64,000 nucleotides of DNA from Cellulosimicrobium cellulans (lineage in GTDB: Bacteria; Actinomycetota; Actinomycetes; Actinomycetales; Cellulomonadaceae). The stretch's first letter is position 1. Each line of letters starts with the position of its first letter. Positions 1 through 27,344 of the stretch are shown in pieces. The notes beneath the pieces were generated by a model. That model had not been told where the DNA came from, searched no databases, and saw only the letters and a list, made by a program, of their open reading frames with translations. A program made the position numbers and the translations under genes. The stretch is taken from the NCBI RefSeq assembly GCF_016921195.1, contig NZ_JAFGYF010000004.1:62001-126000 (forward strand). The letters are read 5' to 3'.

Positions 1-2
1 AG

Positions 3-1085: not shown

Positions 1086-1109
1086 CGCCCCGCGGAGCGC
1101 CGTGGGAGG

Positions 1110-1148
1110 GGGCCCGTCCCCGGTCGTGCTGCGACCGGGGGCGGGCCC
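1110..1148. terminator. Strong bidirectional hairpin between convergent genes
   Basis: Arms 1110-1126 and 1132-1148 pair over 17 positions with one G-T wobble around a 5-nt loop (TGCTG). It sits between the stops of the GDPD gene (1085) and the convergent membrane-protein gene (1151). The position and stem strength fit a shared terminator. There is no clear T-tract, as is common in actinobacteria. Confidence 0.75.
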
Positions 1149-1150
1149 GC

Positions 1151-11317: not shown

Positions 11318-11452
11318 GCGGGCGGGCGGTGTCGTGCTCGGCACGCGCAGCGGTTCCGGAGCCGGCCGGTTAAGCAGGTCTCCTCACGAATCGCCTAGGG
11401 TGGGACGTGGAAGTGCGACGCCGCGCCCGTGCCGACCCGACGAGGGGGACCC

Positions 11453-12217: not shown

Positions 12218-14707
12218 TCAGCCGCAGGTGAGCGCGTCGTACGGGACGGCGACGGTGCGGCCGTCCGCGGTCGCGGTCGCCTCGCCGGCGGGGACGGTCG
12301 CGGTGCGGGCGGGGAACGACTGGTAGGCGCTCGCCCCCGGCGCGACGTCCGCGACGACCCGCGAGCCGTACGGCGTGGCCAGCTCGACGTCGACCGGCTC
12401 GTCCCCGGTGCTCGTGGCACGCACCGCGACGTAGGCCTTCCCGGCGAGGCACCGCGCCTGGGCGGTGACGTCGAGCGTCGGGCCCGCACCCCCGCCCGGC
12501 ACGACGGCGTCCCACGGCACGCGGCCCACGAACACGTCGGCAGCGCCCGCGTTCGTCGTACCGGCTGGCGCGCCGTACGTGAGTCCGGTGAGCAGCACCG
12601 CGCCGTCGCGGCCGTGGGCGGCGGGTGCGGGGGCCGCGAACAGGTTCGCGTCGTCCCACTCGTCGGCGCCGTCGCGCTCGCGCGACCCGGTCTGCGTCGC
12701 CTCGCCCGGGGTGCCGTCGGCCGCGACGGGGAACGTCACGACGTCGACCCCGCCGACGGCCGTGCCCAGCGCGCCGTACGTCGTGCCGACGACGAGCACC
12801 GCGTCGTCGGCACCGAGCACGCCGGTCACGCCGCGGTCGTCGGTCGACGTCCCGACCTGCGTCGTCCACAGGACCTCGCCCGCGGGGTCGAACGCCCGTG
12901 CCACGACGTCGTTGTCCCCGAGGTTGCCGTCCTCGCCGAGCGCCCCGCGCGTGTGCCCTACCGCGACGACCGACCCGTCCGAGCGCGCCACGAGGCCGTT
13001 GACCTGGTCGTTCTCGCTCGTCGCGACGGCGCGCAGCCACTCCTGCTCGCCGTCCGCGCCGTAGCGCGCGACCCAGCCGTCGTTCGCGCCCGCGCGCTCG
13101 GCCCCGGGCATCCCGCCGCCCGACACCCCGCCCACGTACACCCCGCCGTCGGGCGAGGCGGCGACCGCGAGCGCCTTGTCCTCGCCGGGCCCGCCCACCT
13201 GGCGCAGCCACAGCAGCTCGCCCGTCGCGGAGACCCGGCCGACCAGCGCGTCCTTGTCCCCGGCGCTCGGCGCGTCGCCCACGGCGCCGCTCGTGTACCC
13301 GGCGACGTAGGCGCCGCCCGCGCCGTCGGGCGCGACGGCGTAGAAGCGGTCGGCCGCGCCGGGGTCGCCGGTCTGCAGCGTCCAGGCGCGCTCGCCGTCG
13401 GCGGTGACGGCCGCGACGAACCCGTCGTCGCGCGTCGTGCCCGGGTGGGCGCCGTCGAGGTCGCCCTTGGTGTACCCGGCGACGAGCACGCCGCCGGCGG
13501 CGCCCGGCACGACGCCGTACGCGCGGTCGTCCGCGGCCGTCGCGACCGCGTGCCGCCAGACCTCGGTGCCATCGGCGTCGCGCCGCACGACCACGGTGTC
13601 CAGCCCGCCCGCGGGCTCGTACCCGTCCCACGCCCCGGCGAGGTTCAGCGCGACCGCGGTGCCGCCGTCGGGCAGGGCCGTCACGCCGCCCGCGCGGTCG
13701 TCGCCCGCGGAGCCGAGGAGCTCGGCGTCCCACGGCGCGGCGGGCGTGGTGCGCAGGCGCGCCGAGACGTCGACGACTCCCTCGCGGAACGCGGGCCGCC
13801 AGACGTCCCAGTCGTGGCCGCCGTCGAGCACGCGCAGCTCGGCCGTCACGCCCGGGACGCGGCGCGCCTGGTTGTAGAGGCGCGCGGACTCGAAGTCGAT
13901 GTCGTGCGTGGCCTCGGCGGGGTCGGGGTTGGCCCACTCGTCGTCGCCGACGGCGACGAACAGGTGCACCGGGAGCGCCGGGTCGAGCGCCGCGAGCGCC
14001 GTCGGGTAGGACAGCTCGGTGTACCGGTCGGCGTCGAACGGCGCGGGCCCGACGCCGTAGCCGCCGTGGTCGCGGGCCGAGGAGTCGGCCGGCGGCTGCG
14101 GCACGTAGACGGCGGGGCTCAGCACGATGCCCGCGGAGAACGTGTCCTGGTGGGCGAGCGTGAACCGCAGCGCGCCCGCGCCGCCCATGGAGTAGCCGCC
14201 CACGGCGCGTGCCTCGCGGTCCTCGACCGTGCGGTAGGTCGCGTCGACGTGCTCGACGAGGTCGCGCGTGAACGCCGTCTCGACGGCCGTGCCGAAGCCG
14301 GCGCCCGTCGCGTCCCCGGTGTACAGCGAGTCCGTGTACCAGGAGCCGCGGTCGTTCCACGGCGCGTCGGGCATGACGACGACCATCGGCTGGATCTCGC
14401 CCGCCCCGATGAGCTCGTCGAGGTCGCCCGTGACCTGCCGCCACGCGGCCTGCGTGTCGCCGCGGCCGTGCAGCAGGTAGAGCGTCGGGTACTCCTGCGC
14501 GGCGTCGTCGTAGCCGGGCGGCAGGTAGACCGTGTAGTCGATCGGCCCGGCCACCGAGTCGGCGACCCGCCCCGCCTCGACCGTGCCCTGCTCCGCGGCG
14601 GTCGCGGGCAGCGCGAGCCCCAGCCCGCCCAGACCGACCGCGAGGGCCAGCGCGGTCCCGACCGCCGTCGTGCCCGGCCGCCGGTGCGGCCGTCGTGCTG
14701 CGTCCAT
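12218..14707 (-). CDS. Exported esterase with beta-propeller repeats
   Basis: An 829-residue protein. Residues 1-38 are a signal peptide (LALAVGLGGLGLALPATAA). Residues ~45-318 are an esterase-D/feruloyl-esterase-like alpha/beta hydrolase with Ser173 in GYSMGGAG and His298 in DGGHDWDVW. Residues ~326-735 hold repeated SBBP-like propeller blades (GSAGDDRAGGVTALPDGG, ATAADDRAYGVVPG, GGPGEDKALAVAASPDGGVYVGG and others). The last ~85 residues form a Cys-bounded domain (ARCLAGKAYV to ALTCG) like the asparaginase tail. It probably cleaves ester-linked side groups on plant or microbial polysaccharide. Two tandem ATGs exist (14710, 14707); the second sits better behind GAGGAG. Confidence 0.88.
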   Translation of the reverse strand: MDAARRPHRRPGTTAVGTALALAVGLGGLGLALPATAAEQGTVEAGRVADSVAGPIDYTVYLPPGYDDAAQEYPTLYLLHGRGDTQAAWRQVTGDLDELIGAGEIQPMVVVMPDAPWNDRGSWYTDSLYTGDATGAGFGTAVETAFTRDLVEHVDATYRTVEDREARAVGGYSMGGAGALRFTLAHQDTFSAGIVLSPAVYVPQPPADSSARDHGGYGVGPAPFDADRYTELSYPTALAALDPALPVHLFVAVGDDEWANPDPAEATHDIDFESARLYNQARRVPGVTAELRVLDGGHDWDVWRPAFREGVVDVSARLRTTPAAPWDAELLGSAGDDRAGGVTALPDGGTAVALNLAGAWDGYEPAGGLDTVVVRRDADGTEVWRHAVATAADDRAYGVVPGAAGGVLVAGYTKGDLDGAHPGTTRDDGFVAAVTADGERAWTLQTGDPGAADRFYAVAPDGAGGAYVAGYTSGAVGDAPSAGDKDALVGRVSATGELLWLRQVGGPGEDKALAVAASPDGGVYVGGVSGGGMPGAERAGANDGWVARYGADGEQEWLRAVATSENDQVNGLVARSDGSVVAVGHTRGALGEDGNLGDNDVVARAFDPAGEVLWTTQVGTSTDDRGVTGVLGADDAVLVVGTTYGALGTAVGGVDVVTFPVAADGTPGEATQTGSRERDGADEWDDANLFAAPAPAAHGRDGAVLLTGLTYGAPAGTTNAGAADVFVGRVPWDAVVPGGGAGPTLDVTAQARCLAGKAYVAVRATSTGDEPVDVELATPYGSRVVADVAPGASAYQSFPARTATVPAGEATATADGRTVAVPYDALTCG

Positions 14708-14757
14708 CATGTCTCCTCGTCGAGATCCGGTGATGTGCTGCCCCCTCCCTCGTCCCG

Positions 14758-14837
14758 CCGAGCACGACGCTGCTGTCGTGACCGGGCCGATGACGACGGC
14801 GACGTCGTGCTCGGCCGGGAGGAGGGTCGTTCTCGGC
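14758..14837. repeat. Hairpin repeat, copy C
   Basis: Arms 14758-14779 and 14793-14814 pair at 19 of 22 positions with a 13-nt loop. The 15-mer AGGGTCGTTCTCGGC is repeated exactly at 14823-14837. It is in the same orientation as copy B, and the two bracket the esterase gene. It follows the last gene of the 10-gene operon (stop 14872) and probably terminates it. Confidence 0.8.
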
Positions 14838-14871
14838 GCGGCGCGCACCTCGGCCGCGCCGGCCCGCCGCG

Positions 14872-15735
14872 CTAGCCGGCCGCGCGGCGGTCCGCCAGTG
14901 CCAGCACGGTGCGGGCGCGCTCGACCATCGCGACGTCGAGGAACGTGCCGTCGGCGAGTGCGACGACGCCCGTGCCCGACGCCGCGGCGTCGCCCACGCG
15001 CTCGACGACCTCGCGCGCGCGGTCCACCTCGTCCGGGGTCGGGAGGAACGCGTCGCGGATCGTGTCGAGCTGCCCGGGGTGGATCGCGGTGCGGCCGCAG
15101 AACCCGAGCGCGCGCCCGGCGCGGCACGACGCCGCGAGCCCGTCGAGGTCGCGCACGTGCGTGAACGCGGACATCGCGGGCGACGGCAGCCCCGCCGCCC
15201 GGGCCGCGACGACGACCCGGCTGCGCGCCCACGCGAGCCCGGCCTCGTCGTCGACCCGCAGGTCGGAGCGCAGGTCGGCCTCGCCGAGCCCGAGGGACGC
15301 GACCTGCGGCGACGCCGTCGCGAGCTCGAACGCGCGCTCGACGCCGAGCGCCGACTCGACCAGCAGGTGCAGCGCCCGCCCGGGGAGCGCCGCCGCGAGC
15401 GCGCGCACCTCGTCGGCGGACTCGACCTTCGGCGCGCGCGCCCCGACGGCGAGCGGCAGCCCGGCGAGGGCCGCGACGTCGGCGGCGTGCCACGGCGTCG
15501 CGGGGTGGTTGATCCGCACCTGGACCCCGCGCGCGGCGGCGGCCTCGTCGAGCAGCGCGACGGCGTGCGCCCGTGCCTCGTCCTTGCGCGCCGGCGCGAC
15601 GGCGTCCTCGAGGTCCACGAGCACGACGTCGGCCGCGGACCCGATCGCCTTCGCGACCCGGTCGGGCCGGTCCGCGGGCACGTACAGCAGCGTCAGCGGC
15701 GGCGCGGCGCCCGGCCGGTCGCCCCGGCCCGTCAC
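14872..15735 (-). CDS. CoA-ester lyase, HpcH/HpaI-CitE family
   Basis: A 287-residue TIM-barrel protein of the CitE/malyl-CoA lyase type: LTLLYVPADRPDRVAKAI at the N-terminus, VLVDLEDAVAPARKDEAR, VRINHPATPW, LHLLVESALGVERA (catalytic/metal Glu), ASLGLGEADLRSDL (metal Asp) and GFCGRTAIHPGQLDTI. The family cleaves beta-hydroxyacyl-CoA esters such as malyl-CoA or citramalyl-CoA to acetyl-CoA plus a 2-oxoacid. The GTG start (15733-15735) overlaps the stop of the CoA-transferase gene (GTGA). The transferase next door would supply its CoA ester. It is the last gene of the operon. Confidence 0.9.
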   Translation of the reverse strand: MTGRGDRPGAAPPLTLLYVPADRPDRVAKAIGSAADVVLVDLEDAVAPARKDEARAHAVALLDEAAAARGVQVRINHPATPWHAADVAALAGLPLAVGARAPKVESADEVRALAAALPGRALHLLVESALGVERAFELATASPQVASLGLGEADLRSDLRVDDEAGLAWARSRVVVAARAAGLPSPAMSAFTHVRDLDGLAASCRAGRALGFCGRTAIHPGQLDTIRDAFLPTPDEVDRAREVVERVGDAAASGTGVVALADGTFLDVAMVERARTVLALADRRAAG

Positions 15736-16952
15736 ACCGCCCCCTCGGCCCGGAGCTCGGCGACGCGCTCGGGCGAGAAGCCGAGCTCGCCCAGCACGGC
15801 GTCGGTGTCGGCGCCGTGGGCGCGGCCGGTGAAGCGGATGACGCCGTCGTTCTCGGACATCCGGAAGAGCGGCCCCTGCATGAGCATCGGCCCGAGCTCG
15901 GGGTCCTCGATCTCGTGGATCGTGCCGAGCGCGCGGAACTGCGGGTCGTCGACGATGTCCTGGGCGTCGTAGATCGGCGCGACGGCGGCCTGCGCCTCCT
16001 CGAACGCGGCCACGACCTCGTCGCGCGTGCGCTGCGCGATCCAGCCGCCGACGGCCTCGTCGAGCAGGTCGGCGTGCCGCGCGCGCTCGACGCCGCTCGC
16101 GAACCACGGCTCGTCGACGAGCTCAGGGCGCCCGACGAGGCGCACGACGCGCTCGGCGATGGACTGCGCCGACGTCGACACCGCGACCCACTGCCCGTCG
16201 CGCGTGCGGTAGGTGTTGCGCGGCGCGTTGTTCGCGGACCGGTTGCCGGTGCGCGGCTGCACGGTGCGGAGCTGGTCCCAGCGCGTGATCTGCGGCCCGA
16301 GCATCGCGAGGATGGGCTCGATGATCGCCGTGTCGACGACCTGCCCGTGCCCGGTGCGCTCGCGCGTGGACAGCGCGACCATGACGGCGAACGCGGTCGC
16401 GAGCGACGCGACGCCGTCCGCGAGCCCGAACGGCGGGAGGGTCGGCGGGCCGTCGGGCTCGCCGGTCATCGCGGCGAACCCGCTCATCGCCTCGGCGAGC
16501 GTGCCGAACCCGGGGCGGGTGCGGTACGGGCCGACCTGCCCGAACCCGCTCACGCGCGCGAGCACGAGCCGCGGGTTGTGCGCGGACAGCTCGTCGTAGC
16601 CCAGGCCCCAGCGCTCGAGCGTGCCGGGCCGGAAGTTCTCGATGACGACGTCCGCCCCGGCGACGAGCGCGAGGAACACCTCGCGGCCGCCGTCGCTCCC
16701 GAGGTTCGCCGTGACCGTGCGCTTGTTGCGCCCGAGCGTCTTCCACCACAGGTTCACGCCGTCCTTCGCGGCGCCGTGCGTGCGCGACGGGTCGGGCTTC
16801 GTGGGGTGCTCGACCTTGACGACGTCGGCGCCCAGGTCGCCGAGGTGCATCGCCGCCATCGGCCCGGCGAACAGCGTCGACGCGTCGACGACGCGCAGGC
16901 CCGCGAGCGCGCCCGCGGCCGGGTCGCGCGAGACGCGCGGTGCGTCCGTCAT
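15732..16952 (-). CDS. CaiB/BaiF (class III) CoA-transferase
   Basis: A 406-residue class III CoA-transferase: GLRVVDASTLFAGPMAAMHLGDLGADVVKVEHP, GVNLWWKTLGRNKR, DVVIENFRPGTLERWGLGYDEL, SGFGQVGPYRTRPGFG, and the catalytic Asp in GHGQVVDTAIIEP. It moves CoA between a donor (often succinyl-CoA) and a carboxylic acid. Its start overlaps the stop of the upstream fusion gene (ATGA) and its stop overlaps the lyase start (GTGA). The tight coupling to a CitE-type lyase suggests that it activates a hydroxy-dicarboxylic or similar acid for cleavage. Confidence 0.92.
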   Translation of the reverse strand: MTDAPRVSRDPAAGALAGLRVVDASTLFAGPMAAMHLGDLGADVVKVEHPTKPDPSRTHGAAKDGVNLWWKTLGRNKRTVTANLGSDGGREVFLALVAGADVVIENFRPGTLERWGLGYDELSAHNPRLVLARVSGFGQVGPYRTRPGFGTLAEAMSGFAAMTGEPDGPPTLPPFGLADGVASLATAFAVMVALSTRERTGHGQVVDTAIIEPILAMLGPQITRWDQLRTVQPRTGNRSANNAPRNTYRTRDGQWVAVSTSAQSIAERVVRLVGRPELVDEPWFASGVERARHADLLDEAVGGWIAQRTRDEVVAAFEEAQAAVAPIYDAQDIVDDPQFRALGTIHEIEDPELGPMLMQGPLFRMSENDGVIRFTGRAHGADTDAVLGELGFSPERVAELRAEGAV

Positions 16953-18952
16953 GCCGTCACCCCCGTCTCGTCGTCGGCGAGGTCCCACGCGCAGCGGAAC
17001 CCGACGGTCGCGCCGCGCGCGAGCCCCAGGCCGGGGACGAGGAGCTTGACCGCGTAGTCCGCCGCGTGGCGCCCGCCCTCGACGTACCAGTCGGAGCCCT
17101 CGGCGCGGTAGTCGCTCCCGCCCTTGATCATGACGAACCGCGTGCGGCCGTCCGAGTGCTCGGAGGCCGTCCAGCTCCACACGGCGGGTTCGCCGCGCGT
17201 CCAGCCGGGCTGCTCGGCCGCGAGCTGCCACTCGTCCTCGGTGGGCAGACGACCGCCCCGCCACGCGCAGTAGGCGCGCGCGTCGTCGAGGTCGACGAAC
17301 GTCACGGGCTCGTCCTCCGTGCCGGGCACGGGACGGCCGTCCGCCCAGTGCGCGAGGAAGCGGTGCGCGACGGCGGGCGTGTAGCCCGTCGCGGCGAGGA
17401 ACTCCGCGAACTGCGCGTTCGTGACGTCGCCCCCGACCGCGACCGGGGTGGCGAGCTCGCCGTCGCGCTGGAGGGTCCGCGCGTCGTGCAGGCGCGGCGG
17501 GAGCGGCTTCCACTCGTCCACGTACGGCGCGCCCTGGTACATCCCGGTCTCGCGCGCGCGGTACCGGACGGTCAGCACGTACGGCCCAGCGGGCACGACG
17601 ACGGCGCCCGTCCCGGGCGCCACGCTCGCCCCGGGTGCCGCGACCCTCTCGGCAGCGGGTGCGAGACGCCGCGCGAGGCGGTGCGGGAACCGCGCGTCGG
17701 GGTCGTGCGGCGCGGTCTCGTCGAGCGCGGCGACGACGTCGCGCAGGTGCGGCAGCCACGCGGGCTCGGCGGCGCCGTCGGCCACGTGCAGCACCGCGGC
17801 AATGCCGCGGCCGGGCACGCGCCCGGGCGCGCCGCCCGGGAGCAGGGGGCCGTCGTGGTCCGTCTCGCCGCGGTTGACGACCGTCCACAGGGTCACGCCG
17901 TCGAGCTCCCAGCGCGACGCGTACACCCCGGCGGCCTCGGCCTCGGGCGCGAGCTCGGCGAGCGGCGTCCACTCCCCCTCCAGGAGCAGCGGCCGCGCGG
18001 CGCGCTGGACCGTGACCAGGCGCTTGACCGTCGCGGCGTCGCGCCGCGACCAGCCGACCCACACGCCGAACACGACCTCCCACACCATGACGCCCACGCC
18101 GTTGAGCCACGCGGACTGGAGCTCCTCGGAGTGGTCGCGGTGCCAGCGGCGCACGTGGTGCTGCATGTGCCGACGCTCGTACCAGTGCGCGCGCAGCACG
18201 CCGGGCACGGGCGAGTCGGCGAAGAACTGCGCCCACGACGACGAGTGGTCCTCGATGCGCTCGACCGGGAGCTTCGACTCGCCCTCCAGGACGATCCCAG
18301 GACGCGCCGCCTCGAGGCGAGCGACGAGCTCCGGCTCCGCCTTCTTCAGGGTGTCCAGGAAGACGCCGTCGGCGCCGAGCTCGCGCACGACGGCCGCGAG
18401 CTCGGTGAGGTCGTCGTCGCCGCGGCGCGTGCCGACGTCCCACGGGTTGTAGTCGACGAACACGTGCAGGCCCGCGTCGTGGAACGTCCGCACGAGGTCG
18501 ACGATCCCCGGGACGTCGCGGTAGAAGTCCCACTGGTTGCGGTCGTCGATCCCGATGACGGGGTACGCGTGCCACAGGACGACGGCGTCGAGGCCGCCGA
18601 ACCGCTCGCGCGCGTCGGCGAGGAACCGCTCGGTCGTGAACCGGTGCTCCTCGAACGAGTACAGCAGCTCGTCCCACAACCAGACCTGCGCGACCGTCGA
18701 GCAGCCAGCGGCCCACGCCGCGTCCGGGCGGTCGTACGCGGCGCCCGTGTACCCGTGGCGGCGACGTGCGTCGTCCCGCCACGCGGCGAGCCGCTCGCGC
18801 CACGCGGGGCGGTCGGCGCGGTCGGCCGGACCGACGAAGATCTTCGCCTCGTCGAGCGCGCGCGACTGCTCGGGCGTGAGCGGCCCGTCGAGCGGGACCT
18901 CGGTCGGCCGGTCGATCGGGCGCGGGACGAGCGGGTCGAACGTGTAGGTCAT
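16949..18952 (-). CDS. TIM-barrel glycosidase-like domain fused to an FGE/SUMF1-type domain
   Basis: A 667-residue protein without a signal peptide. Residues ~60-430 look like a glycoside-hydrolase-type (beta/alpha) barrel: LDAVVLWHAYPVIGI, GLHVFVDYNPWDVG, ELGADGVFLDTLKKAEPE, GIVLEGESKLP, WLNGVGVMVWEVVFG. Residues ~495-660 match the formylglycine-generating-enzyme/sulfatase-modifying-factor domain: GGDVTNAQFAEFLAATGYTP, VTFVDLDDARAYCAWRGGRLPTEDEWQLA, SWTASEHSDG, and GATVGFRCAWD at the end. The paired active-site cysteines of true FGE are not visible, so sulfatase activation is unlikely. ATGA overlap with the CoA-transferase gene. No close named family is recognised for the fusion. Confidence 0.85.
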   Translation of the reverse strand: MTYTFDPLVPRPIDRPTEVPLDGPLTPEQSRALDEAKIFVGPADRADRPAWRERLAAWRDDARRRHGYTGAAYDRPDAAWAAGCSTVAQVWLWDELLYSFEEHRFTTERFLADARERFGGLDAVVLWHAYPVIGIDDRNQWDFYRDVPGIVDLVRTFHDAGLHVFVDYNPWDVGTRRGDDDLTELAAVVRELGADGVFLDTLKKAEPELVARLEAARPGIVLEGESKLPVERIEDHSSSWAQFFADSPVPGVLRAHWYERRHMQHHVRRWHRDHSEELQSAWLNGVGVMVWEVVFGVWVGWSRRDAATVKRLVTVQRAARPLLLEGEWTPLAELAPEAEAAGVYASRWELDGVTLWTVVNRGETDHDGPLLPGGAPGRVPGRGIAAVLHVADGAAEPAWLPHLRDVVAALDETAPHDPDARFPHRLARRLAPAAERVAAPGASVAPGTGAVVVPAGPYVLTVRYRARETGMYQGAPYVDEWKPLPPRLHDARTLQRDGELATPVAVGGDVTNAQFAEFLAATGYTPAVAHRFLAHWADGRPVPGTEDEPVTFVDLDDARAYCAWRGGRLPTEDEWQLAAEQPGWTRGEPAVWSWTASEHSDGRTRFVMIKGGSDYRAEGSDWYVEGGRHAADYAVKLLVPGLGLARGATVGFRCAWDLADDETGVTA

Positions 18953-19005
18953 GGTGCCTTTCCCTCGGCGGGCCGGGCCCGCGCTCGGACGTGCTGCGGA
19001 CGGGC

Positions 19006-20010
19006 TCAGGTCGGTCGGGTGGGGTTCTCGGCCCGCTCGGCGAGCGCGACGACGTCCGCGGCGTCCGGCACGGCGTCCTGCGCGCCGGGCCGGGTCACGG
19101 CGAGCGCGCCCGCGGCGGCGGCCAGCCGGGCGGCGTCCGGCAGGTCCGCGCCGCGCGCGAGCGCGGCGGCGAGGACGCCGCAGAACGTGTCGCCCGCGCC
19201 GGTCGTGTCCACGGCCTCGACGGGGATCGCGGGGACGGTCGTGAGCAGGGGCCCGCCCGCACGACGCTCCGCCACGAGGCTGCCCTCTCCCCCGAGCGTC
19301 ACGACGACGGCCGGCACGCGCTCCAGCAGCAGCCCGGCGAGCACGCTCGGCTCGCCGTCCCCGGAGGCCCCCGCCAGGTCCGCCGCCTCGTGCTCGTTGA
19401 CCACGAGCACGTCGACCTCCGCCCAGAGGTCGTCCGGCAGGTCGCGCGACGGCGCGGCGTTGAGGACCAGCAGCGCGCCCGGGCGGCGCGCCGCGGCGGC
19501 GGCGCGCACGACGTCGAGCGGGATCTCGAGCTGCGCGAGCACGACGTCCGCGGCGGCGATCCGCTCGGCCTGCGCCGCGCCGACCGTCACGTGCGAGTTC
19601 GCGCCGGGCGCGACGACGATCGCGTTCTCGCCGTCGGGCGAGACGGTGATGAGCGCGGTGCCCGTCGCGGCCTCCACGCGCTCGACGAGGTCCGTCCGCA
19701 CCCCGCCGCGGTCGAGCGACGCGAGCAGCAGGTCCGCCGCGTCGTCGTGCCCGAGCGCTCCGACGAACGTCGTGTCGGCGCCGCCCGCGCGCGCCGCGCC
19801 GACGGCCTGGTTCGCGCCCTTGCCGCCGGGGTTGCGCCGCAGCTCGCCGCCGAGGATGGTCTCGCCGCCGCCGGGATGGCGCGGCACGTCGACGACGAGG
19901 TCGACGTTCGCCGACCCGACCACCACGACCCGTCCGGACGTGCCCGGGACCGTGCCGTCCGGCGTCCCGTGCTGCGTCCGGTCAGGTGTCCCGTCCGACG
20001 TCGTGCTCAT
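19006..20010 (-). CDS. rbsK: Ribokinase-type PfkB sugar kinase
   Basis: A 334-residue PfkB kinase with ribokinase hallmarks: VVVGSANVDLVVDVPRHPGGGET, the first signature RNPGGKGANQAVGAARAGG, NEHEAADLAG, VVVTLGGEGSLV, and the second signature DTTGAGDTFCGVLAAALA with the catalytic Asp. An N-terminal stretch of ~27 residues is polar and Thr/Gly-rich and may be spurious, but the ATG is coupled (ATGA) to the stop of the upstream ADP-ribosylglycohydrolase gene. Ribokinase makes ribose-5-phosphate from ribose. Its place next to two ribosyl-glycohydrolase-family genes supports ribose, or a close pentose, as the released sugar. Confidence 0.92.
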   Translation of the reverse strand: MSTTSDGTPDRTQHGTPDGTVPGTSGRVVVVGSANVDLVVDVPRHPGGGETILGGELRRNPGGKGANQAVGAARAGGADTTFVGALGHDDAADLLLASLDRGGVRTDLVERVEAATGTALITVSPDGENAIVVAPGANSHVTVGAAQAERIAAADVVLAQLEIPLDVVRAAAAARRPGALLVLNAAPSRDLPDDLWAEVDVLVVNEHEAADLAGASGDGEPSVLAGLLLERVPAVVVTLGGEGSLVAERRAGGPLLTTVPAIPVEAVDTTGAGDTFCGVLAAALARGADLPDAARLAAAAGALAVTRPGAQDAVPDAADVVALAERAENPTRPT

Positions 20011-21500
20011 GCGCCTGCCTCCTCCGTGGCTCCCTGCGCGGCTCCCCCGGCCACCTCGACCGGCGTCGCCGCGAGCGCGACCGTCCGCGCCGCGAGGTCC
20101 ACGATCCTCTGCTCGCCGCCGGGCAGCGAGGTCGCGATGTGGCCGTCGAGCGGGCGCGTCCACCGCTGGCCGATCCCGTCGACGCCCTGCAGCGCACCCA
20201 CCACGCCGCCGACCGTCGCGCCCGCGGAGTCGGTGTCCCAGCCCGCGGTGACGGCGATCGCGACGCTCGCGCCGAAGTCGCCGCGGCCGTCCGCACCGCG
20301 CCCCGCCGAGAGCGCGTAGGCGATGACCGCGGCGTTGTTGAGCACGTGCACCCAGTGCAGGTCGCCGTACGCGGCGTGGATCGCGTCGAGCCCGGCGCGC
20401 ACGCCCGCCTCCGACGCGTCGCCGTCGCGGCCCGCGTCGCGGCCGAGCCGGATCGCGGCGGCCAGCCGGCTGCCCGGCGGCACGACGGCGTCCGCCGCGT
20501 CGAGCACCTCGTCGACCGTCTCGCAGACCATGGCCGCCGACGCGAGCGCGGCCGCCCACATCGCGCCGTACACGCCGTTGCGCGTGTGGCTCAGCCGCGC
20601 GTCCGTCCACGCGAGGCGCGCCGCCTCGCGCACGTCGCCGGGCGAGACCCAGCCGAGCACGTCCGTACGGATGAGCGCGCCGATCCACTCCCGGAACGGG
20701 TTGTGGTGCGTCGCCGTCTCCGGCACCGGCCGCGCGTCGAGGATGTTGCGGTAGGCGGCGCGCTCGGCCGTGAACACGCGGCCCGCGGGCAGCGCGTCGA
20801 GCCAGAGCTGCGCGACGTCGTCCGTCGTGAAGCCGCGCCCGTGCCGCTCCAGCAGGGCGAGCGCGAGGATCGGGTAGTTGAGGTCGTCGTCCTCGGGCAT
20901 CCCGTCGATGTTCTCCTCGAGCGACGTCGGGGCGCTGCGCCGGTTCCACGGCCAGCGCGCGGCGACGTCGTCGGGCAGCCCGACGGCGGTGAACCAGCGG
21001 TCGAGGGGCCACCGGCCCGTCGCGCGCAGGATCTCCTCGATCCCGGCGCGCGGGATCTTCTCCACGGGCTTGCCGAGCAGGCAGCCCGCCGCGCGCCCGG
21101 TCCACGCGCCGAGCACGCGGTCCGCGTACGCGGCGTCGGCGGCGGTTCCGGTTGCCGCACCGGCCGCGATGCCGGCGGAGGACCCGACGGCGCCCGGGCG
21201 GGTGGGCAGGCCGGGCGCCGCCGGGAGCGTGGTGAGGATCGCGTCCCAGTCGTCGGGCTCGTGCGGCGCGGGCGCCGCGGGCAGCGCGTCGAGCTCCACG
21301 AGCAGGTCGCGCGCGAGCGCACGCAGCTCCGGGGTCGCGGGGACGGGGCCGGCCCCGCTCACCGCGGGGGCGGGGTCGCCGCCCGCGGCGACCCAGCGCT
21401 CGCGCACGTCCGCGAGCGCCGCAGCGTCCTTGCCCTCCGCCGCGGACTGGACGAGCTCGTGCGCGAGCAGGTCCTCGGGCTGGGCCCAGGTCAGCCTCAC
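20007..21500 (-). CDS. ADP-ribosylglycohydrolase-family protein A (long, variant metal motif)
   Basis: A 497-residue protein from a GTG start coupled by GTGA to the upstream paralogue. An N-terminal region of ~110 residues is not part of the usual fold. The DraG/ARH core starts at YADRVLGAWTGRAAGCLLGKPVEKIPR. The motif that is normally T-D-D-T reads E203-D204-D205-D206 (MPEDDDLNYPIL), while the second metal motif is standard (GWDTD422-424 S). Also visible are HNPFREWIGALIRTDVLGWV and LSHTRNGVYGAMWAAA. The family hydrolyses N- or O-glycosidic bonds of ADP-ribose or related ribosides with two divalent metals. With a ribokinase and a sugar importer in the same operon, a catabolic glycosidase role is more likely than a protein-modification role. 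Confidence 0.9.
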   Translation of the reverse strand: MRLTWAQPEDLLAHELVQSAAEGKDAAALADVRERWVAAGGDPAPAVSGAGPVPATPELRALARDLLVELDALPAAPAPHEPDDWDAILTTLPAAPGLPTRPGAVGSSAGIAAGAATGTAADAAYADRVLGAWTGRAAGCLLGKPVEKIPRAGIEEILRATGRWPLDRWFTAVGLPDDVAARWPWNRRSAPTSLEENIDGMPEDDDLNYPILALALLERHGRGFTTDDVAQLWLDALPAGRVFTAERAAYRNILDARPVPETATHHNPFREWIGALIRTDVLGWVSPGDVREAARLAWTDARLSHTRNGVYGAMWAAALASAAMVCETVDEVLDAADAVVPPGSRLAAAIRLGRDAGRDGDASEAGVRAGLDAIHAAYGDLHWVHVLNNAAVIAYALSAGRGADGRGDFGASVAIAVTAGWDTDSAGATVGGVVGALQGVDGIGQRWTRPLDGHIATSLPGGEQRIVDLAARTVALAATPVEVAGGAAQGATEEAGA

Positions 21501-22726
21501 GCCGGGCCACCCGCCCGCGCGGCCCGCGCCGCGCCGTCGTGCACCCCGGGGGCCGGCCCGTCCACGGACGCGTTGCCGAGCTCGGCGAGCGCGCGCAGGC
21601 GCGACGTGGCGCGCTCGCGGTCCGCACGGAGGATGTCGGCGGCGGCCGACGCCATGAGCCGGCCGGTCTCGCGGATGTCCATGCGGCTCGCCTCCTCGAT
21701 CGCGTCGAGCCACTCGTCCGGCACGACGGCCGTCCCGCCCAGCCCCGCGCACACCGCACCGGCCATGACGGCGATCGAGTCGGCGTCGCGCCCGTAGTTC
21801 ACGGCGCCGAGGACCGCGCCGCGGAAGTCGCCGCGGTGCCCGAGCACGAAGCCGAGCGCCGCGGGAAGCTCCTCGATGGACTTGGTGCGCGACGGGCGGC
21901 GCGCGTCCATGGACATCTGCCGGTACGCGGGCCCGACGGAGTCGAACGGCGCGACCGTGTCACGGATGAGCCGCGCGAGGGCGCGCTCCTCCTCGTCCGT
22001 CGTGGGCGCCGTCGTCCAGCCGTCGAACGCGTCGACCACGGCCCGGAGCGCCGCGGCCGTGCCGTCGTGCGCGACGTCGAGCGCGGCGTGCACGACGTCG
22101 TCGACCGTGGCCCCCGGCGCGACGGACGCGGCGACCATGGCCGCGAACACGCCCGCGGCCTCGCGGCCGTAGCTCGACTGGTGCGCGCCGGTGAGGTCGA
22201 TCGCCTCGGCGTACGCGCCGCGCGGGTCGCCCGCGTTGGCGAGGCCGACGGGCGCGACGTACATCGCGGCGCCGCAGTTGACGACGTTCCCGACGCCCGC
22301 CTCGCGCGGGTCCACGTGCCCGTAGTGCAGGCGCGCGACGATCCACTTCTCGGCGAGGAACACGCGCTGGAGCAGCAGCGCGGTCGACTCGAGCTCGGGG
22401 ATCCAGCGTGGCTCGCCGATCATGAGCGGCACGAGGTCCTCGGCCATCGCGTACGCGTCGAGGTGCTCGCGGCGCTTCGCGTACACCTCCACGAGCGCGC
22501 GCGTCATGAGGGTGTCGTCGGTGACGTGCCCGTCGCCCTTGTGGTAGGGCGCGATCGGACGCGCGTCCTGCCAGTTCGGGTACCAGGGCTCGACGATCCC
22601 GGTCACGCGCCCCCCGTGGCGCTCCTCGATCTGCTCGGGGGTCCAGCCCTCGGTGGCGCCCCCCAGCGCGTCCCCCACCGCCGCTCCGGTGATCACTGCC
22701 ACCGCTCGGTCGTCCAGCCAGGTCAC
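21497..22726 (-). CDS. ADP-ribosylglycohydrolase-family protein B
   Basis: A 409-residue DraG/ARH-fold protein from a GTG start preceded by AGGGAG at 6 nt. Motifs: AVAVITGAAVGDALGGATEGW, GDGHVT69-DDT (metal ligands), TGAHQSSYGREAAGVFAAMVAAS, and NYGRDAD314-316 SIAVMAGAVCAG (second metal pair). It is clearly a different subfamily from protein A: shorter, with canonical motifs. No signal peptide. Its GTGA junction with protein A implies co-translation. The likely role is hydrolysis of an imported glycoside, possibly with protein A acting on a different linkage or step. Confidence 0.9.
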   Translation of the reverse strand: MTWLDDRAVAVITGAAVGDALGGATEGWTPEQIEERHGGRVTGIVEPWYPNWQDARPIAPYHKGDGHVTDDTLMTRALVEVYAKRREHLDAYAMAEDLVPLMIGEPRWIPELESTALLLQRVFLAEKWIVARLHYGHVDPREAGVGNVVNCGAAMYVAPVGLANAGDPRGAYAEAIDLTGAHQSSYGREAAGVFAAMVAASVAPGATVDDVVHAALDVAHDGTAAALRAVVDAFDGWTTAPTTDEEERALARLIRDTVAPFDSVGPAYRQMSMDARRPSRTKSIEELPAALGFVLGHRGDFRGAVLGAVNYGRDADSIAVMAGAVCAGLGGTAVVPDEWLDAIEEASRMDIRETGRLMASAAADILRADRERATSRLRALAELGNASVDGPAPGVHDGAARAARAGGPA

Positions 22727-22795
22727 GGTCCACTCCCTGTCGATCTCTCTCGGCGCGGGTCGCGCCCGGTGCGACCCGTGGGGGCCGCGGTTCCC

Positions 22796-22826
22796 GGCGG
22801 GGCGGCCGTCCTTCGGCCGCCCCGCC
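22796..22826. terminator. Intra-operon hairpin after the binding-protein gene
   Basis: Perfect 13-bp arms 22796-22808 and 22814-22826 around a 5-nt loop, starting 11 bp after the binding-protein stop (22837) and 70 bp before the next gene. Hairpins here commonly protect or attenuate transcripts so that the binding protein is made in excess over downstream enzymes. It could also mark a boundary between two transcripts. Confidence 0.6.
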
Positions 22827-22836
22827 GCTTGTCCTG

Positions 22837-24126
22837 CTACTTGGTGATCTCGTCCCAGCCCGACTCGAGCTCGGTCGCGAGCTGGTCGGCGTCGATCTCC
22901 TGGGCGAGGAACTTCTGGTACGCGGGCGTCGCGACCGTGTCCTTCCACTGCGCGTACGCGTCGACGAACAGGTACGGGGCCGAGGTGAGGTACTGGCCGG
23001 ACGAGAGGATCGTCGACCAGCCGTTCTCGTCGCCGAGCGAGGCCGCCATGGCCTCCTGCGCCGACGTGGTGGCCGGGATGAGCGCGTCCGCCTCGTTGAG
23101 CGCGGCGAGGTTCTCCGTGTCGGTGAAGAACTCGATGAACTCCGCGGACTCCTCGACGTGCTCGGAGTCGATGTTCACCGAGAGCGTCTGCGGGTTGGCG
23201 GCCTGCTCGGCGCCGTCGGGGCCCTCGAGCGGGGGCAGCACGACCCAGTCGAAGCCCTCGGGCGCGTCGTTGGCGATGTTCGCGGCCTGGAACGAGCCCT
23301 GGATCGTCATGGCGACCTGGCCGCCGTAGAACGACGCGAGCGTCTCCGAGCCCGACTGCGTGAGCGTCACCGGGAGCACCGTGTTGTCGGTGTGCGCCAT
23401 CTCGTCGACGAGCTCCGGCAGGGCCATCTCGCCCTCGCCGATCGTGATGCTCGCGTCGGCGCCGGTGCCCTCGAAGTACTGGCCGCCGAAGCCGGGCGCC
23501 ATGGCCATGAACGCGGCCGTCGGGCTCGCGAGCCCCCACCCGAGCCCGTACGCGCCGTCCTTGGTGGTGGCCTTCGCGATCTCGCGCAGCTCGTCCCACG
23601 TCATCGTGTCGCCCGTGGGGATCTCGACGCCCGCGGCCTCGAGCATCGTCCTGTTGGCGAACACCATGTAGGACTGCAGCTCGGTCGGGTACGCGATGAC
23701 CTGGTCGTCGACCGTGACGGAGTCGAGGATGCCCTCGGGGATGTCGGCGCGCTTCTCGTCCGACATGTACTCGGACAGGTCGGCCAGGTAGCCGTCCACG
23801 GCGAAGGGCACGATGCTCGCGGCCTCGTAGTGGATGATGTCCGGCGCGGCGCCGCCGTTGAACTGCGTGATGAGCTTGTCGTAGATCCCGTCCCAGCCCG
23901 CGGGCACGATCTCGACCTGGACGTCGGGGTTGGCCTCGTTCCAGTCCGCGACGATCTTCTCGGTCGCCTCGATGGCGGCCGGCTGGTCGGACAGCGACTG
24001 GAACTTCAGCGTGACCGGGCCGCCGTCGGCGCCGTCGTCCCCGCTGCCGCCCCCGCTGGAGCAGGACGCGACGAGCAGGGTCGTGATCGTGAGGCATGCG
24101 GCGATGGACGCACCACGAGTCTTCAT
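22837..24126 (-). CDS. Sugar ABC transporter solute-binding lipoprotein
   Basis: A 429-residue family-1 extracellular solute-binding protein. The lipoprotein signal has the lipobox LVASC at about residues 18-22, then a Gly/Asp linker. Typical features follow: VTLKFQSLSDQPAAIEATEKIVADWNEANPDVQVEIVPAGW, GGAAPDIIHYEA, TGDTMTWDELREIAKAT and an extended C-lobe ending LATELESGWDEITK. It delivers a substrate, usually an oligosaccharide or glycoside, to the two permeases upstream. It is third from the last transport gene in the operon order LacI-permease-permease-SBP. Confidence 0.93.
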   Translation of the reverse strand: MKTRGASIAACLTITTLLVASCSSGGGSGDDGADGGPVTLKFQSLSDQPAAIEATEKIVADWNEANPDVQVEIVPAGWDGIYDKLITQFNGGAAPDIIHYEAASIVPFAVDGYLADLSEYMSDEKRADIPEGILDSVTVDDQVIAYPTELQSYMVFANRTMLEAAGVEIPTGDTMTWDELREIAKATTKDGAYGLGWGLASPTAAFMAMAPGFGGQYFEGTGADASITIGEGEMALPELVDEMAHTDNTVLPVTLTQSGSETLASFYGGQVAMTIQGSFQAANIANDAPEGFDWVVLPPLEGPDGAEQAANPQTLSVNIDSEHVEESAEFIEFFTDTENLAALNEADALIPATTSAQEAMAASLGDENGWSTILSSGQYLTSAPYLFVDAYAQWKDTVATPAYQKFLAQEIDADQLATELESGWDEITK

Positions 24127-24168
24127 GGTTCTACCTTTCGGGTGGGGGCGGTTCGGGGGTTCATGGGG

Positions 24169-24996
24169 TCACCCCTTGACGGCGCCGGACAGCAGGCCGC
24201 CGGTGAGCTTCTTCTGCATGATCGAGAAGAAGACGATGCTGGGGATGGCCGCGAGCACGGAGCCCGCGGCGAGGGGGCCGAGCGCCACCTTGCCCTCGCC
24301 GCCGATGAACATCTTCAGCGTGATGGGCAGCGTGTAGTTCTCGGGTGACTGGAGCAGCACGAGCGCGAAGAAGAACTCGTTCCACGACGACACGAAGCTG
24401 AACATCGCCGTCGCGACGATGCCCGGCATGAGGAGCGGGAAGACGATCGTGCGGAGCACGGTGAACCGGCTCGCGCCGTCCATCGAGCCCGCCTCCTCGA
24501 GGTCGACCGGGATCGCGGAGACGTAGCCCTGCATCATCCACAGCGCGAACGGCAGCGTGTACGTGGTGTGGACGAGCGTGAGCCCGACGAGCGAGTCCGT
24601 GAGGCCGATGGTCCGCAGGATGAGGAACAGCGGCAGGATGATGAGGATCACCGGGAACACCTGGCTCACGAGGATCCAGCCCACGCCTGCCGCGCGGATC
24701 TTGCCGCGCAACCGCGCGAGCACGTACGACGCGGGCAGCGCGATGACGATGACGAGAGCCGTCGAGACGACCGCGACGATCGCGCTGTTCCACGCCGAGC
24801 GCACGAGGCCCTGCCGCGAGAGCGCCTGGGAGTAGTTCTCCCAGTGAAAGTCCTGCGGGATCAGGCTCACGGTCAGCGAGTTGAGCTCGCCCGACGACTT
24901 GAGCGACGCGGAGATGAGCCAGAGCAGCGGGAAGCCGAGGAAGAGGATGTAGAACGCGAGGGCCACGTACTGGGCCGGGCGGACGAGTGCGCGCAC
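24169..24996 (-). CDS. Carbohydrate ABC transporter permease (MalG-type)
   Basis: A 275-residue inner-membrane permease with six hydrophobic spans. The cytoplasmic EAA loop EEAGSMDGASRFTVLRTIVFPLLMPG at ~190 contacts the ATPase. GTG start 3 bp after the stop of the partner permease. Pairs with the gene at 25000-25962. No ATPase gene is present in the operon, so it probably uses a shared MsiK-type ATPase encoded elsewhere, as is usual in actinobacteria. Confidence 0.93.
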   Translation of the reverse strand: MRALVRPAQYVALAFYILFLGFPLLWLISASLKSSGELNSLTVSLIPQDFHWENYSQALSRQGLVRSAWNSAIVAVVSTALVIVIALPASYVLARLRGKIRAAGVGWILVSQVFPVILIILPLFLILRTIGLTDSLVGLTLVHTTYTLPFALWMMQGYVSAIPVDLEEAGSMDGASRFTVLRTIVFPLLMPGIVATAMFSFVSSWNEFFFALVLLQSPENYTLPITLKMFIGGEGKVALGPLAAGSVLAAIPSIVFFSIMQKKLTGGLLSGAVKG

Positions 24997-24999
24997 GGG

Positions 25000-25962
25000 T
25001 CAGCTCTCCTTCTCGGAGCGGAACTGCGACCGCAGGTAGATCGCGAGCAGGAGGACGACGACCACCACGAGCACGACGCCCATCGCGGCGGCGTAGCCGA
25101 TGTTCCGGTTCTTGAACGCCTCCAGGTAGGTGAAGAGCATCGGCAGCATGGTCCGGCCGCCAGGCCCGCCCTCGGTGAGCACGTAGACCAGCGAGAACGA
25201 GTTGAAGTTCCAGATGAAGTTCAGCGACGTGATGGACGTGATGATGGGCCGCAGGCTGGGGAGCGTCACCGCGGTGAAGCGGCGCCACGCGCCCGCGCCG
25301 TCCATCGCGGCGGCCTCGTGGAGCTCGTCCGGGATCTGCTGGAGCCCGGCGAGCAGCGTCACCGTGGTCTGCGGCATGCCGACCCACACGCCGACGACGA
25401 TCACCGCGGGCAGCGCGGTCGAGAAGTCCGCGAGCCAGTTGATGTCGTCCGGCAGGCCCAGAGCGCCGAGGAATGCGTTGAGCGGCCCCGCGTTGGGCGA
25501 GTAGATCATCTGCCACATGATCGCCACGACGACCGGCGGCATGGCCCACGGGATGAGCGCGAGCACACGCGTCAGCCCCTGGAGCCGGAGCCCGGAGTTG
25601 AGCAGGAGCGCGAGGCCCATCGCCGCGACGAGCTGGAGCAGCGTCACCGAGACGGCCCAGATCATGCCGATGCGGAACGAGTCCCAGAAGAACGAGTTGT
25701 CGGCGAGGCGCACGAAGTTGTCGACGCCCACGAACTGGTAGTCCGGGTGCCGCACGAGCCGGGCGTCGGTGAACGCGAGCGCGACGCCCATGACGAGCGG
25801 CGCGACGCTCAGCACGAGGATCGGCAGGAGCGACGGCATGACGAGCGCGATCGCCTCGCGCCGCTTGGCGCGGGCCATCCCGCCGGTCCGTCGCGGGGCG
25901 CCACGGTCGGGGCGACGGGCGGCCGCGGCGTGCGGGTCGCCCGCGAGGGTCGGCGCGCTCAT
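25000..25962 (-). CDS. Carbohydrate ABC transporter permease (MalF/UgpA-type)
   Basis: A 320-residue permease with an Arg-rich cytoplasmic N-terminus and six hydrophobic spans beginning EAIALVMPSLLPILVLSVAPLVMG. The EAA motif is DELHEAAAMDGAGAWRRFTAVTLPSLRP at ~215. It ends YLRSQFRSEKES. The ATG overlaps the LacI stop (ATGA), so the repressor and importer are co-translated. It forms the heterodimer channel with the following permease. Confidence 0.93.
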   Translation of the reverse strand: MSAPTLAGDPHAAAARRPDRGAPRRTGGMARAKRREAIALVMPSLLPILVLSVAPLVMGVALAFTDARLVRHPDYQFVGVDNFVRLADNSFFWDSFRIGMIWAVSVTLLQLVAAMGLALLLNSGLRLQGLTRVLALIPWAMPPVVVAIMWQMIYSPNAGPLNAFLGALGLPDDINWLADFSTALPAVIVVGVWVGMPQTTVTLLAGLQQIPDELHEAAAMDGAGAWRRFTAVTLPSLRPIITSITSLNFIWNFNSFSLVYVLTEGGPGGRTMLPMLFTYLEAFKNRNIGYAAAMGVVLVVVVVLLLAIYLRSQFRSEKES

Positions 25963-26993
25963 CGGGAACCCCCTCCGGCGTCGGCGGTCGACTCGCGCAC
26001 CGCGAGCCGGGGCCCGACGGCGCGGTGCCGCCCGGCCTGCGCGTCGCCGTCCACGAGGTCGACGACGAGCTCCGCGGCGATGCGCCCGCGCTCGGTCGAG
26101 CCGAGCGAGACGCTCGTGAGGCTGGGCTGGAACACGCGGCCGATCTCGGTGTCGTCCATCCCGGTCACCGCCACGTCCTCGGGGACCGACAGCCCGCGCT
26201 CGCGCACCGCGCGGATCGCGCCGATGGCGAGCAGGTCGTTGGCCGCGACGATCGCGTCCGGGCGGGTGGCGCCGTCGGACGCGTCGAGGAGCGCGCGCGT
26301 CGCGGCGAGTCCCGCGGCCACGGTGAAGTCCGTGGCGACGACCGCGTCCGCGCGCTCCCCGCTGAACCCGTCGGCGCGCGTCGCGGCGTCGAAGCCGCGC
26401 TGGCGTGCCTCACCCGGCGTCGTGTCGAGCGGGCCGTTGAGGAACGCGAGCCGGCGGCGGCCGAGGTCGAGCAGGTGGCGCACGGCCTCGCCGATGCCGC
26501 CCGCCGAGTCGGTGGAGACCGAGTCGATGCCGTGGTCGGCGAGGCTGCGGCCGATGACGACGACGGGGACGGGCGCCTGCCGGATCTCCTCGACGAGCTC
26601 GTCGTCGGTGCGCAGCGGGCTGAGGATCATGGCGTCGACGAAGCCGCTCGACAGGCTGCGCACGAGCTCGACGGTCGAGGTCGTCGTGTCCCCCGTCGTC
26701 ATGACGACGACGCGGTAGCCGTGCGGCGCGAGGACCTCGTGGATCGCCGTCATCATCTCGACGTAGACGGGGTTGCCGATGTCGGCGACGGCGAACGCGA
26801 CCTGGAACGTCTTCTTCAGGCGCAGGGACCGCCCGATGGCGTCCGGGCTGTAGCCGAGCTCGGTGGCCGCGGCGCGCACGCGCTCGACCATCGCCGGGCT
26901 CGCGCCCGTCCCGTGCAGGGCGCGGGAGGTCGAGGCCAGGGAGACCCCGGCCCGCTGTGCCACCTGGATCAGCGTGGCGCGTGATGACGTCAC
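25959..26993 (-). CDS. LacI-family transcriptional regulator of the 10-gene operon
   Basis: A 344-residue LacI/GalR protein from a GTG start. The HTH is TLIQVAQRAGVSLASTSRALHGTGASPAMVERVRAAATELGYSPDAIGRSL in the first 60 residues. The periplasmic-binding-protein-like effector domain follows (VAFAVADIGNPVYVEMM, AIVAANDLLAIGAIRAVRERG, VAVTGMDDTEIGRVFQPSLTSV). It is the first gene of the operon and sits just downstream of two palindromes that match LacI-type operators, so it most likely represses itself and the transport/catabolic genes until the substrate sugar binds. The frame extends upstream to 27086, but that part contains the operators. Confidence 0.92.
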   Translation of the reverse strand: MTSSRATLIQVAQRAGVSLASTSRALHGTGASPAMVERVRAAATELGYSPDAIGRSLRLKKTFQVAFAVADIGNPVYVEMMTAIHEVLAPHGYRVVVMTTGDTTTSTVELVRSLSSGFVDAMILSPLRTDDELVEEIRQAPVPVVVIGRSLADHGIDSVSTDSAGGIGEAVRHLLDLGRRRLAFLNGPLDTTPGEARQRGFDAATRADGFSGERADAVVATDFTVAAGLAATRALLDASDGATRPDAIVAANDLLAIGAIRAVRERGLSVPEDVAVTGMDDTEIGRVFQPSLTSVSLGSTERGRIAAELVVDLVDGDAQAGRHRAVGPRLAVRESTADAGGGSR

Positions 26994-27025: not shown

Positions 27026-27039
27026 TGGAAACGTTTCCA
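27026..27039. promoter_or_regulatory. LacI operator O1
   Basis: Perfect 14-bp palindrome TGGAAACGTTTCCA, 33 bp upstream of the LacI start codon. The core GGAAACGTTTCC is the classic LacI/GalR-type site with the central CG. Confidence 0.85.
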
Positions 27040-27060: not shown

Positions 27061-27074
27061 TGGAAACGTTTCCG
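27061..27074. promoter_or_regulatory. LacI operator O2
   Basis: TGGAAACGTTTCCG, the same 12-bp core as O1. Centres are 35 bp apart. Two sites allow cooperative binding across the promoter of the LacI-led operon. Confidence 0.83.
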
Positions 27075-27144: not shown

Positions 27145-27246
27145 GCGAGGTAGAGCCCTGGTCCCGCGAGATAGAACCGAGGTAGGGACCACGGCTCTAC
27201 CTCGCGGGACCAGGGCTCTACCTCGCGGGACCAGGGCTCTACCTCG
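27145..27246. repeat. 21-bp repeat array with inverted arm
   Basis: Direct units at 27195-27215 and 27216-27236 are identical (core CTACCTCGCGGGACCAGGG), with a partial third at 27237-27246. An inverted copy at 27145-27178 faces them, so the whole array can fold into a long imperfect hairpin. Related loci are at 28411-28498 and 8745-8786. Confidence 0.85.
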
Positions 27247-27344
27247 GCCTCCCACGGGTACGGGGATCCTCGTACGGGGGTTGTCCACGACGACACGGCG
27301 CGGTCAGGCTCGAACCGACCCGACCACCGACGAAAGGTGCACCG

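Follow-up and report, generated by a model that had tools for sequence, protein, structure and literature searches.

A LacI-controlled operon of Cellulosimicrobium cellulans with two ADP-ribosylglycohydrolase-family genes: a candidate route for acylated ribofuranosyl glycosides

Enzymes of the ADP-ribosylglycohydrolase (ARH) fold have been studied mainly as erasers of ADP-ribosylation, while MalEFG-type sugar operons under LacI-family regulators work with a shared ATPase of the MsiK type. Here we describe a ten-gene operon of Cellulosimicrobium cellulans, located within a window of 64,000 nucleotides (contig NZ_JAFGYF010000004.1, positions 62,001 to 126,000), that encodes a LacI-family regulator, a sugar importer, two ARH-family proteins (ARH1 and ARH2), a ribokinase-like kinase, a barrel protein of predicted glycoside hydrolase-like fold joined to a formylglycine-generating enzyme (FGE)-like domain (GH-FGE), a class III CoA-transferase (CaiB), and a CitE-like CoA-ester lyase (Table 1). 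Like the LacI-controlled MalEFG-type sugar operons, it possesses a regulator, a binding protein, and two permeases, with the ATPase encoded elsewhere, but its enzyme set differs from theirs.

The nearest described system is yegTUV of Escherichia coli, three genes under GgaR/YegW that are reported to lack assigned functions and are linked to ADP-glucose and glycogen (PMC10819704). Both systems have a local repressor and unite, in one operon, genes for transport, for a protein of the ARH family, and for a sugar kinase; yegTUV differs by its nucleoside-type transporter of the major facilitator superfamily, single ARH, and GntR-type regulator, and is without GH-FGE, CoA-transferase, lyase, or esterase (PMC10819704). 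The first-pass annotation of this DNA had stated that it knew of no pathway with this gene set. None was found in the full-text literature searched, a body of text with subscription papers mostly outside it, and the locus amounts to a sugar operon under LacI control whose enzymes, as a set, were not found described there.

We propose, with a little less than even confidence, that this operon serves to break down an acylated ribofuranosyl glycoside. Uptake would rely on the binding protein and permeases, with energy from a shared ATPase whose gene lies elsewhere; an associated esterase would free an ester-bound acid, outside the cell in this host and probably inside it where the enzyme is fused to GH-FGE or signal-less; the GH13-like barrel of GH-FGE would cut a glycosidic bond, and a two-metal site in ARH1 and ARH2 would serve to cleave ribofuranosyl bonds; ribose would be phosphorylated by the kinase to ribose 5-phosphate; and the CoA-transferase would activate the freed hydroxy-acid, from which the CitE-like lyase would yield acetyl-CoA and a 2-oxoacid. 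We infer the identity of the sugar (ribose), the step order, the type of acid, and each of the activities. Visible in the DNA itself are the gene set and its conserved order, the operator, the protein families, the conservation of catalytic-type residues, and the esterase association; among these, the conserved order, the private operator, and the esterase association support the proposal, as do the fusions of esterase (L088) and of kinase (L093) to GH-FGE, the ribokinase-like kinase and its homologues elsewhere in genomes whose locus lacks it, the predicted ARH2 fold, sister operons that pair ARH with a kinase and a nucleoside hydrolase, and the residues of the CoA-transferase and lyase. An earlier version of such a route (entry of a ribosyl or similar conjugate, cleavage, phosphorylation of ribose, and activation and cleavage of the acid) is sustained in part; it had lacked the esterase.

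Two to four ARH-fold enzymes beside an importer and a ribokinase-like kinase, in a unit that is conserved and defined by its operator, suggest a second role for this fold, in carbon catabolism. The operon predicts that a ribose conjugate is available to actinobacteria of soil and plant litter, and its function may bear on that of E. coli yegTUV.

Conservation and control of the gene set

Ten coupled minus-strand genes had been placed at 14872-26993 with a longest gap of 110 bp. Starts and stops reproduce the same limits and the gap figure is exact, the junctions comprising five 4-base overlaps (ATGA or GTGA) and gaps of 3, 42, 110, and 53 bp. All ten genes are backed by frame-specific G+C content at third codon positions, mostly 0.9-1.0, with frame switches at gene borders. 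A Pfam search of the ten proteins returned LacI, two BPD_transp_1, SBP_bac_1, two ADP_ribosyl_GH, PfkB, FGE-sulfatase, CoA_transf_3, and HpcH_HpaI, which confirms the family assignments of the first-pass annotation except for the first ~500 residues of GH-FGE.

Gene presence was counted by tblastn in 80 named loci, the best 80 of at least 562 confirmed ARH2 relatives from a scan of genome contigs; this sample leans towards close relatives, and some of its loci are truncated by contig ends. A search for co-occurrence of the ten families in the same order had been suggested earlier as a check, and it finds all ten genes in 56 of the 80 loci, with the genes that are present collinear in 75. ARH2, as the query, occurs in all 80, followed by the solute-binding protein (SBP) and ARH1 (79 each), PermG and CaiB (78 each), PermF and CitE (77 each), LacI (75), GH-FGE (70), and the kinase (67). 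In two of the exceptions to collinearity (L089 and L109) the sole deviation is a second kinase upstream; in the other three (L083, L084, and L111) CaiB-CitE precede LacI and GH-FGE is absent. Besides Cellulosimicrobium itself, the named sources include Promicromonospora, Amycolatopsis, Saccharopolyspora, Microbacterium, Micromonospora, Jiangella, Glycomyces, and Nocardioides. Protein identity to the window ranges from 37 to 100% across loci, with medians from 51% (LacI) to 76% (CaiB) and lowest values per protein from 37% (SBP) to 62% (CaiB). When proteins from 92 loci were crudely clustered, core families occurred in 71-81 loci each (a range that omits a merged kinase/GH-FGE/esterase cluster), and any other family in at most 11; conservation therefore pertains to the unit itself rather than to general synteny.

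ARH2 is matched in 19 of 59 genomes: the genome itself, 12 of 16 congeners, 4 of 20 genomes from its family, and 2 of 22 from its order (one weakly). Twelve stretches were enlarged from this set, partly overlapping with the 80 relatives (e.g. L028/L078, L031/L045). Seven surround a close ARH2, and in six of these the complete ten-gene set is collinear, the seventh having ARH2 and the kinase only; in L035 and L036 no operon query matched at E 1e-8. Of 246 genomes across the phylum that were searched for GH-FGE, with four candidates scored per genome, 78 had a match; among the matches listed, the whole of GH-FGE is covered in its own genome only and the others cover the FGE part alone, and there is therefore no sign of the operon being general in Actinomycetota.

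Since the importer-ARH-kinase genes and the GH-FGE-CoA-transferase-lyase genes are joined and collinear in most of the 80 loci, include 4-base overlaps in the window, and are bridged by a fusion of kinase and GH-FGE in L093, we regard it as very unlikely that they form two independent modules that share a promoter and serve different compounds, even if plasmids of rhizobia, Mycolicibacterium, and others do carry importer and ARH genes, with or without a kinase, but no second module, if Sphingopyxis has kinase, GH-FGE, and CoA-transferase without ARH, and if CaiB-CitE lie apart, ahead of LacI, in L083, L084, and L111.

The palindrome GGAAACGTTTCC, a candidate LacI operator, has exactly two exact copies in the 4.58-Mb assembly, 35 bp apart and both before lacI; at up to one mismatch, 2 sites were found against 0.02 expected in shuffles. 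Within -200 to +30 of lacI in relatives it is exact in 42 of 74, present at up to one mismatch in 62, and at two mismatches in 70, against 11 sites at two mismatches in the remaining 1,517,548 bp of the relatives' loci. The single exact copy away from lacI in the 80 loci (1,618,622 bp) lies at position 2154 of L102 (Jiangella muralis), 53 bases upstream of where a divergent esterase gene is called to start (called 2-2101, minus strand, PF00756). This pattern fits a local, autoregulated regulon that includes the esterase.

ARH proteins, kinase, and importer

The first-pass annotation had recognized two hydrolases of the ARH/DraG family, which holds for both by PF03747 (159.7 bits for ARH1 and 151.3 for ARH2, against a curated cut-off of 26.2) and, as to fold, by the model of ARH2, whose predicted structure shows the ARH3/DraG fold. 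In ARH1, T69, D70, D71, and T72 together with D314, D316, and S317 are invariant in 6/6, and by motif all six metal-ligand positions of the ARH3 type, which we take to be T/D/D and D/D/T-or-S, are present; in a profile alignment Glu203 of ARH2 replaces Thr69 of ARH1. Relative to the ARH3/DraG ADP-ribosyl hydrolases, identity over the fold match is about 18% and equivalog scores fall far short: ARH1 reaches 51.3 of 337.05 bits for DraG (TIGR02662) and 42.6 of 490 for Tri1 (NF041672), and ARH2 24.2 of 337.05 for DraG. The context, a sugar importer and a kinase, is likewise unlike that of those hydrolases. That ARH1 and ARH2 are DraG-type regulatory enzymes that remove ADP-ribose outside any catabolic chemistry is thus scarcely plausible: superfamily and fold are shared, but scores lie far under the DraG and Tri1 cut-offs, no ADP-ribosyltransferase family recurs beside ARH genes among the neighbour clusters, and ARH is repeatedly paired with sugar importers. 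A nucleotide-type substrate (ADP-ribose conjugates) is not favoured either, as neighbour clusters of at least six members include no recurrent Nudix or phosphatase candidates and the importer is of MalFG type. The genome has a third ADP-ribosylglycohydrolase gene (contig C18, 10023-10910), some 52 kb ahead of the window, and one Microbacterium operon carries four genes of the family in succession (L083, 8853-13408).

The importer had been described as having no ATPase, which is true of the operon; two ATPases encoded elsewhere in the genome have 58% and 56% identity to rhizobial UgpC.

Among solved structures, ribokinases are the closest to the kinase. Aligned with E. coli RbsK (1gqt), it shares the NvD, GGKGAN, QLE, and AGDTF stretches, which presumably hold the ribose contacts. 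The kinase is missing in 13 of the 80 loci (one truncated by a contig end). A search limited to the genomes of these kinase-less loci found a homologue elsewhere, at 46-51% identity, in 10 of the 10 genomes searched, two of the ten matches running through one stop. Two sister operons (L034, 5010-13236, and L033, 5382-12562) consist of SBP, permease, permease, an ARH protein of 712-718 aa, a PfkB kinase, and an inosine-uridine nucleoside hydrolase, followed in L034 by adenosine deaminase. Ribokinase is also annotated in three of eight plasmid ARH loci (Mycolicibacterium, Deinococcus, and Agrobacterium L123). By gene content, importer plus ARH is a recurrent module with the kinase as a frequent partner. 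On an Enterobacter plasmid (L157, 6951-11410), LacI, a large ARH protein, and a binding protein are encoded consecutively.

The ARH-fold enzymes could instead cut other furanosides (apio-, psico-, or arabinofuranosides), the kinase phosphorylating the sugar so released. This would suit the kinase's score below the ribokinase cut-off, the Sphingopyxis cluster, where kinase and GH-FGE adjoin a GH127-like protein with an annotated beta-L-arabinofuranosidase domain, and the presence of up to four different ARH genes per operon, which suggests varied bonds; it appears unlikely given that the conserved stretches and closest structures of the kinase are those of ribokinases, that a nucleoside hydrolase is part of two sister operons, and that genomes in which the operon kinase has been lost still have an ordinary ribokinase homologue.

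A wider claim has two parts, taken jointly: (i) that ARH/DraG-fold proteins constitute a large, unrecognized class of catabolic furanosidases, found in several bacterial phyla as one to four ARH proteins alongside a dedicated importer and, in many cases, a ribokinase, and used to consume ribofuranosyl compounds, and (ii) that the actinobacterial version dismantles an acylated glycosyl-riboside to ribose 5-phosphate, a hexose, and acetyl-CoA. We consider the two together possible but doubtful.

GH-FGE, esterase, and acid branch

The first-pass annotation had called GH-FGE a fusion of glycosidase and FGE. Its FGE domain is confirmed by Pfam, PF03781 being the sole match at E up to 0.01; the first ~500 residues have no Pfam match, the curated GH13 sequence family is unmatched, and the GH13-like barrel is indicated by predicted fold only. 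Among the structural matches are 4F2hc, which is not an enzyme, as well as a GH129 enzyme and an alpha-N-acetylgalactosaminidase. Compared with glycosidases of GH13 and GH129 type, identity is about 12%, there is no Pfam glycosidase match, and the C-terminal FGE-like domain sets GH-FGE apart. With a structural list so mixed and no sequence-family match, filing the protein as GH13 was rejected. Formylglycine-generating enzymes presumably conserve a catalytic cysteine pair; the FGE-part cysteines of the window protein are not conserved (kept in 13 and 23 of 35). On scores and residues, neither formylglycine formation nor ergothioneine/selenoneine chemistry is favoured. A Spirosoma plasmid carries, within a large carbohydrate region, a GH-FGE homologue (35% identity; L118, 11704-13878) with a GH28 gene as its neighbour, and a Sphingopyxis plasmid cluster (L119, 77-8379) comprises a TonB receptor, ribokinase, GH-FGE, GH127-like protein, and CoA-transferase.

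The earlier reading had omitted an eleventh associated gene, that of an esterase 161 bp after CitE. The spacer between them holds a hairpin with a folding z-score of -3.45 (1 of 200 shuffles equally stable), and the esterase may therefore be transcribed partly on its own. An esterase catalytic domain occurs in 23 of the 80 loci beside or within the operon: 11 downstream of CitE, 11 between GH-FGE and CaiB (among them L088, where it is fused to GH-FGE), and one divergent (L102). By eye, no signal peptide is apparent in the esterases of L088 and L095.

CaiB scores 397.5 bits with PF02515, above the curated cut-off, and its Asp179, invariant in 6/6, aligns with the Asp of succinate-hydroxymethylglutarate CoA-transferase and YfdE (solved relatives 9br6 and 4hl6) that we assume to be the catalytic residue. 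Residues E127 and D154 of CitE, likewise invariant in 6/6 and kept in alignment, are presumably metal ligands. The top-scoring named family for CitE is RipC/Ccl (NF038242), at 150.1 of 375 bits. The pair recalls itaconate/citramalate degradation by RipC/Ccl and a CoA-transferase in performing, as predicted, the same CoA transfer and then C-C cleavage, but it is tied here to sugar genes and an esterase, and its scores are far under the cut-offs of the itaconate/citramalate, succinyl-CoA:hydroxymethylglutarate, and glutarate CoA-transferase systems (150.1 of 375; 212 of 750). The acid would be a hydroxy-dicarboxylic acid of the malate, citramalate, or hydroxymethylglutarate type. A gene of the phosphoenolpyruvate mutase/isocitrate lyase family directly follows CitE in Promicromonospora panici (L042, 16458-17240), and another is found near the Sphingopyxis cluster.

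CitE-type lyases are reversible, and CaiB and CitE might run in the condensing direction, joining a substrate-derived 2-oxoacid (e.g. glyoxylate) to acetyl-CoA and releasing the product, with no acid taken from the substrate. In keeping with this, no esterase was found in 57 of the 80 loci within the locus DNA examined; the esterase in the other 23, the operator on the divergent esterase gene, and the lack of any recurrent 2-oxoacid-making gene in the operon nonetheless make condensation quite unlikely. Both this alternative and that of another furanose retain real weight.

Points against the proposal, and flanking features

Several observations weigh against catabolism of an acylated ribofuranosyl glycoside. 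The kinase scores 269.2 bits against an equivalog cut-off of 299.65 for ribokinase (TIGR02152). An ARH-importer operon in L032 (4527-10540) is followed by a GFO_IDH_MocA oxidoreductase with no kinase match, and ribokinase is not annotated, in an incomplete gene table, in five of the eight plasmid ARH loci (Nitratireductor, Agrobacterium L156, Enterobacter, Pseudochrobactrum, and Phyllobacterium). The Sphingopyxis cluster has the GH127-like gene and no ARH gene. The GH13-like fold is found also in non-enzymes such as 4F2hc, and the GH-FGE model is weak around residues 221-270, next to E225, which with D200 would make up the putative Asp/Glu pair of the barrel. Neither CaiB nor CitE exceeds the cut-off of a named equivalog, and to these points are added the 57 loci in which no esterase was found.

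Table 1. Features of the operon and its surroundings (window positions)
Feature	Position	Strand	Basis or remark
Candidate LacI operator, copy 1, GGAAACGTTTCC	27027..27038	.	palindrome before lacI
Candidate LacI operator, copy 2, GGAAACGTTTCC	27062..27073	.	35 bp from copy 1
LacI-family regulator, 344 aa	25959..26993	-	Pfam LacI and Peripla_BP_3
PermF, ATP-binding cassette (ABC) sugar permease, MalF/UgpA type	25000..25962	-	profile matches
PermG, ABC sugar permease, MalG type	24169..24996	-	profile matches
SBP, solute-binding lipoprotein	22837..24126	-	SBP_bac_1; PDB relatives are sugar-binding proteins
ARH1, ADP-ribosylglycohydrolase-family, 409 aa	21497..22726	-	PF03747, 159.7 bits
ARH2, ADP-ribosylglycohydrolase-family with extra N-terminal helical region, 497 aa	20007..21500	-	
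Ribokinase-like PfkB kinase, 334 aa	19006..20010	-	PfkB, 209.3 bits; closest PDB chains are ribokinases
GH-FGE, predicted GH13-like barrel with C-terminal FGE-like domain, 667 aa	16949..18952	-	
CaiB, class III CoA-transferase, 406 aa	15732..16952	-	PF02515, 397.5 bits
CitE-like CoA-ester lyase, 287 aa	14872..15735	-	PF03328, 104.9 bits
Spacer with strong hairpin, CitE to esterase gene	14711..14871	-	folding against shuffles
Esterase, 830 aa, signal-like N-terminus (by eye) and repeat region	12218..14710	-	PF00756, 86.9 bits; SBBP

At 27145-27247, in the stretch that separates the operon promoter from a divergent chitinase gene, lie a 39-nt inverted repeat, its arms 92% complementary and 4 nt apart, and three direct repeats of 21 nt. 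Operon and esterase gene are flanked by GH19 chitinase genes at 11429-12103 (+) and 27345-28325 (+, with CBM5/12), and chitinase-like genes lie on both flanks in L037, L039, L052, and L067 as well.

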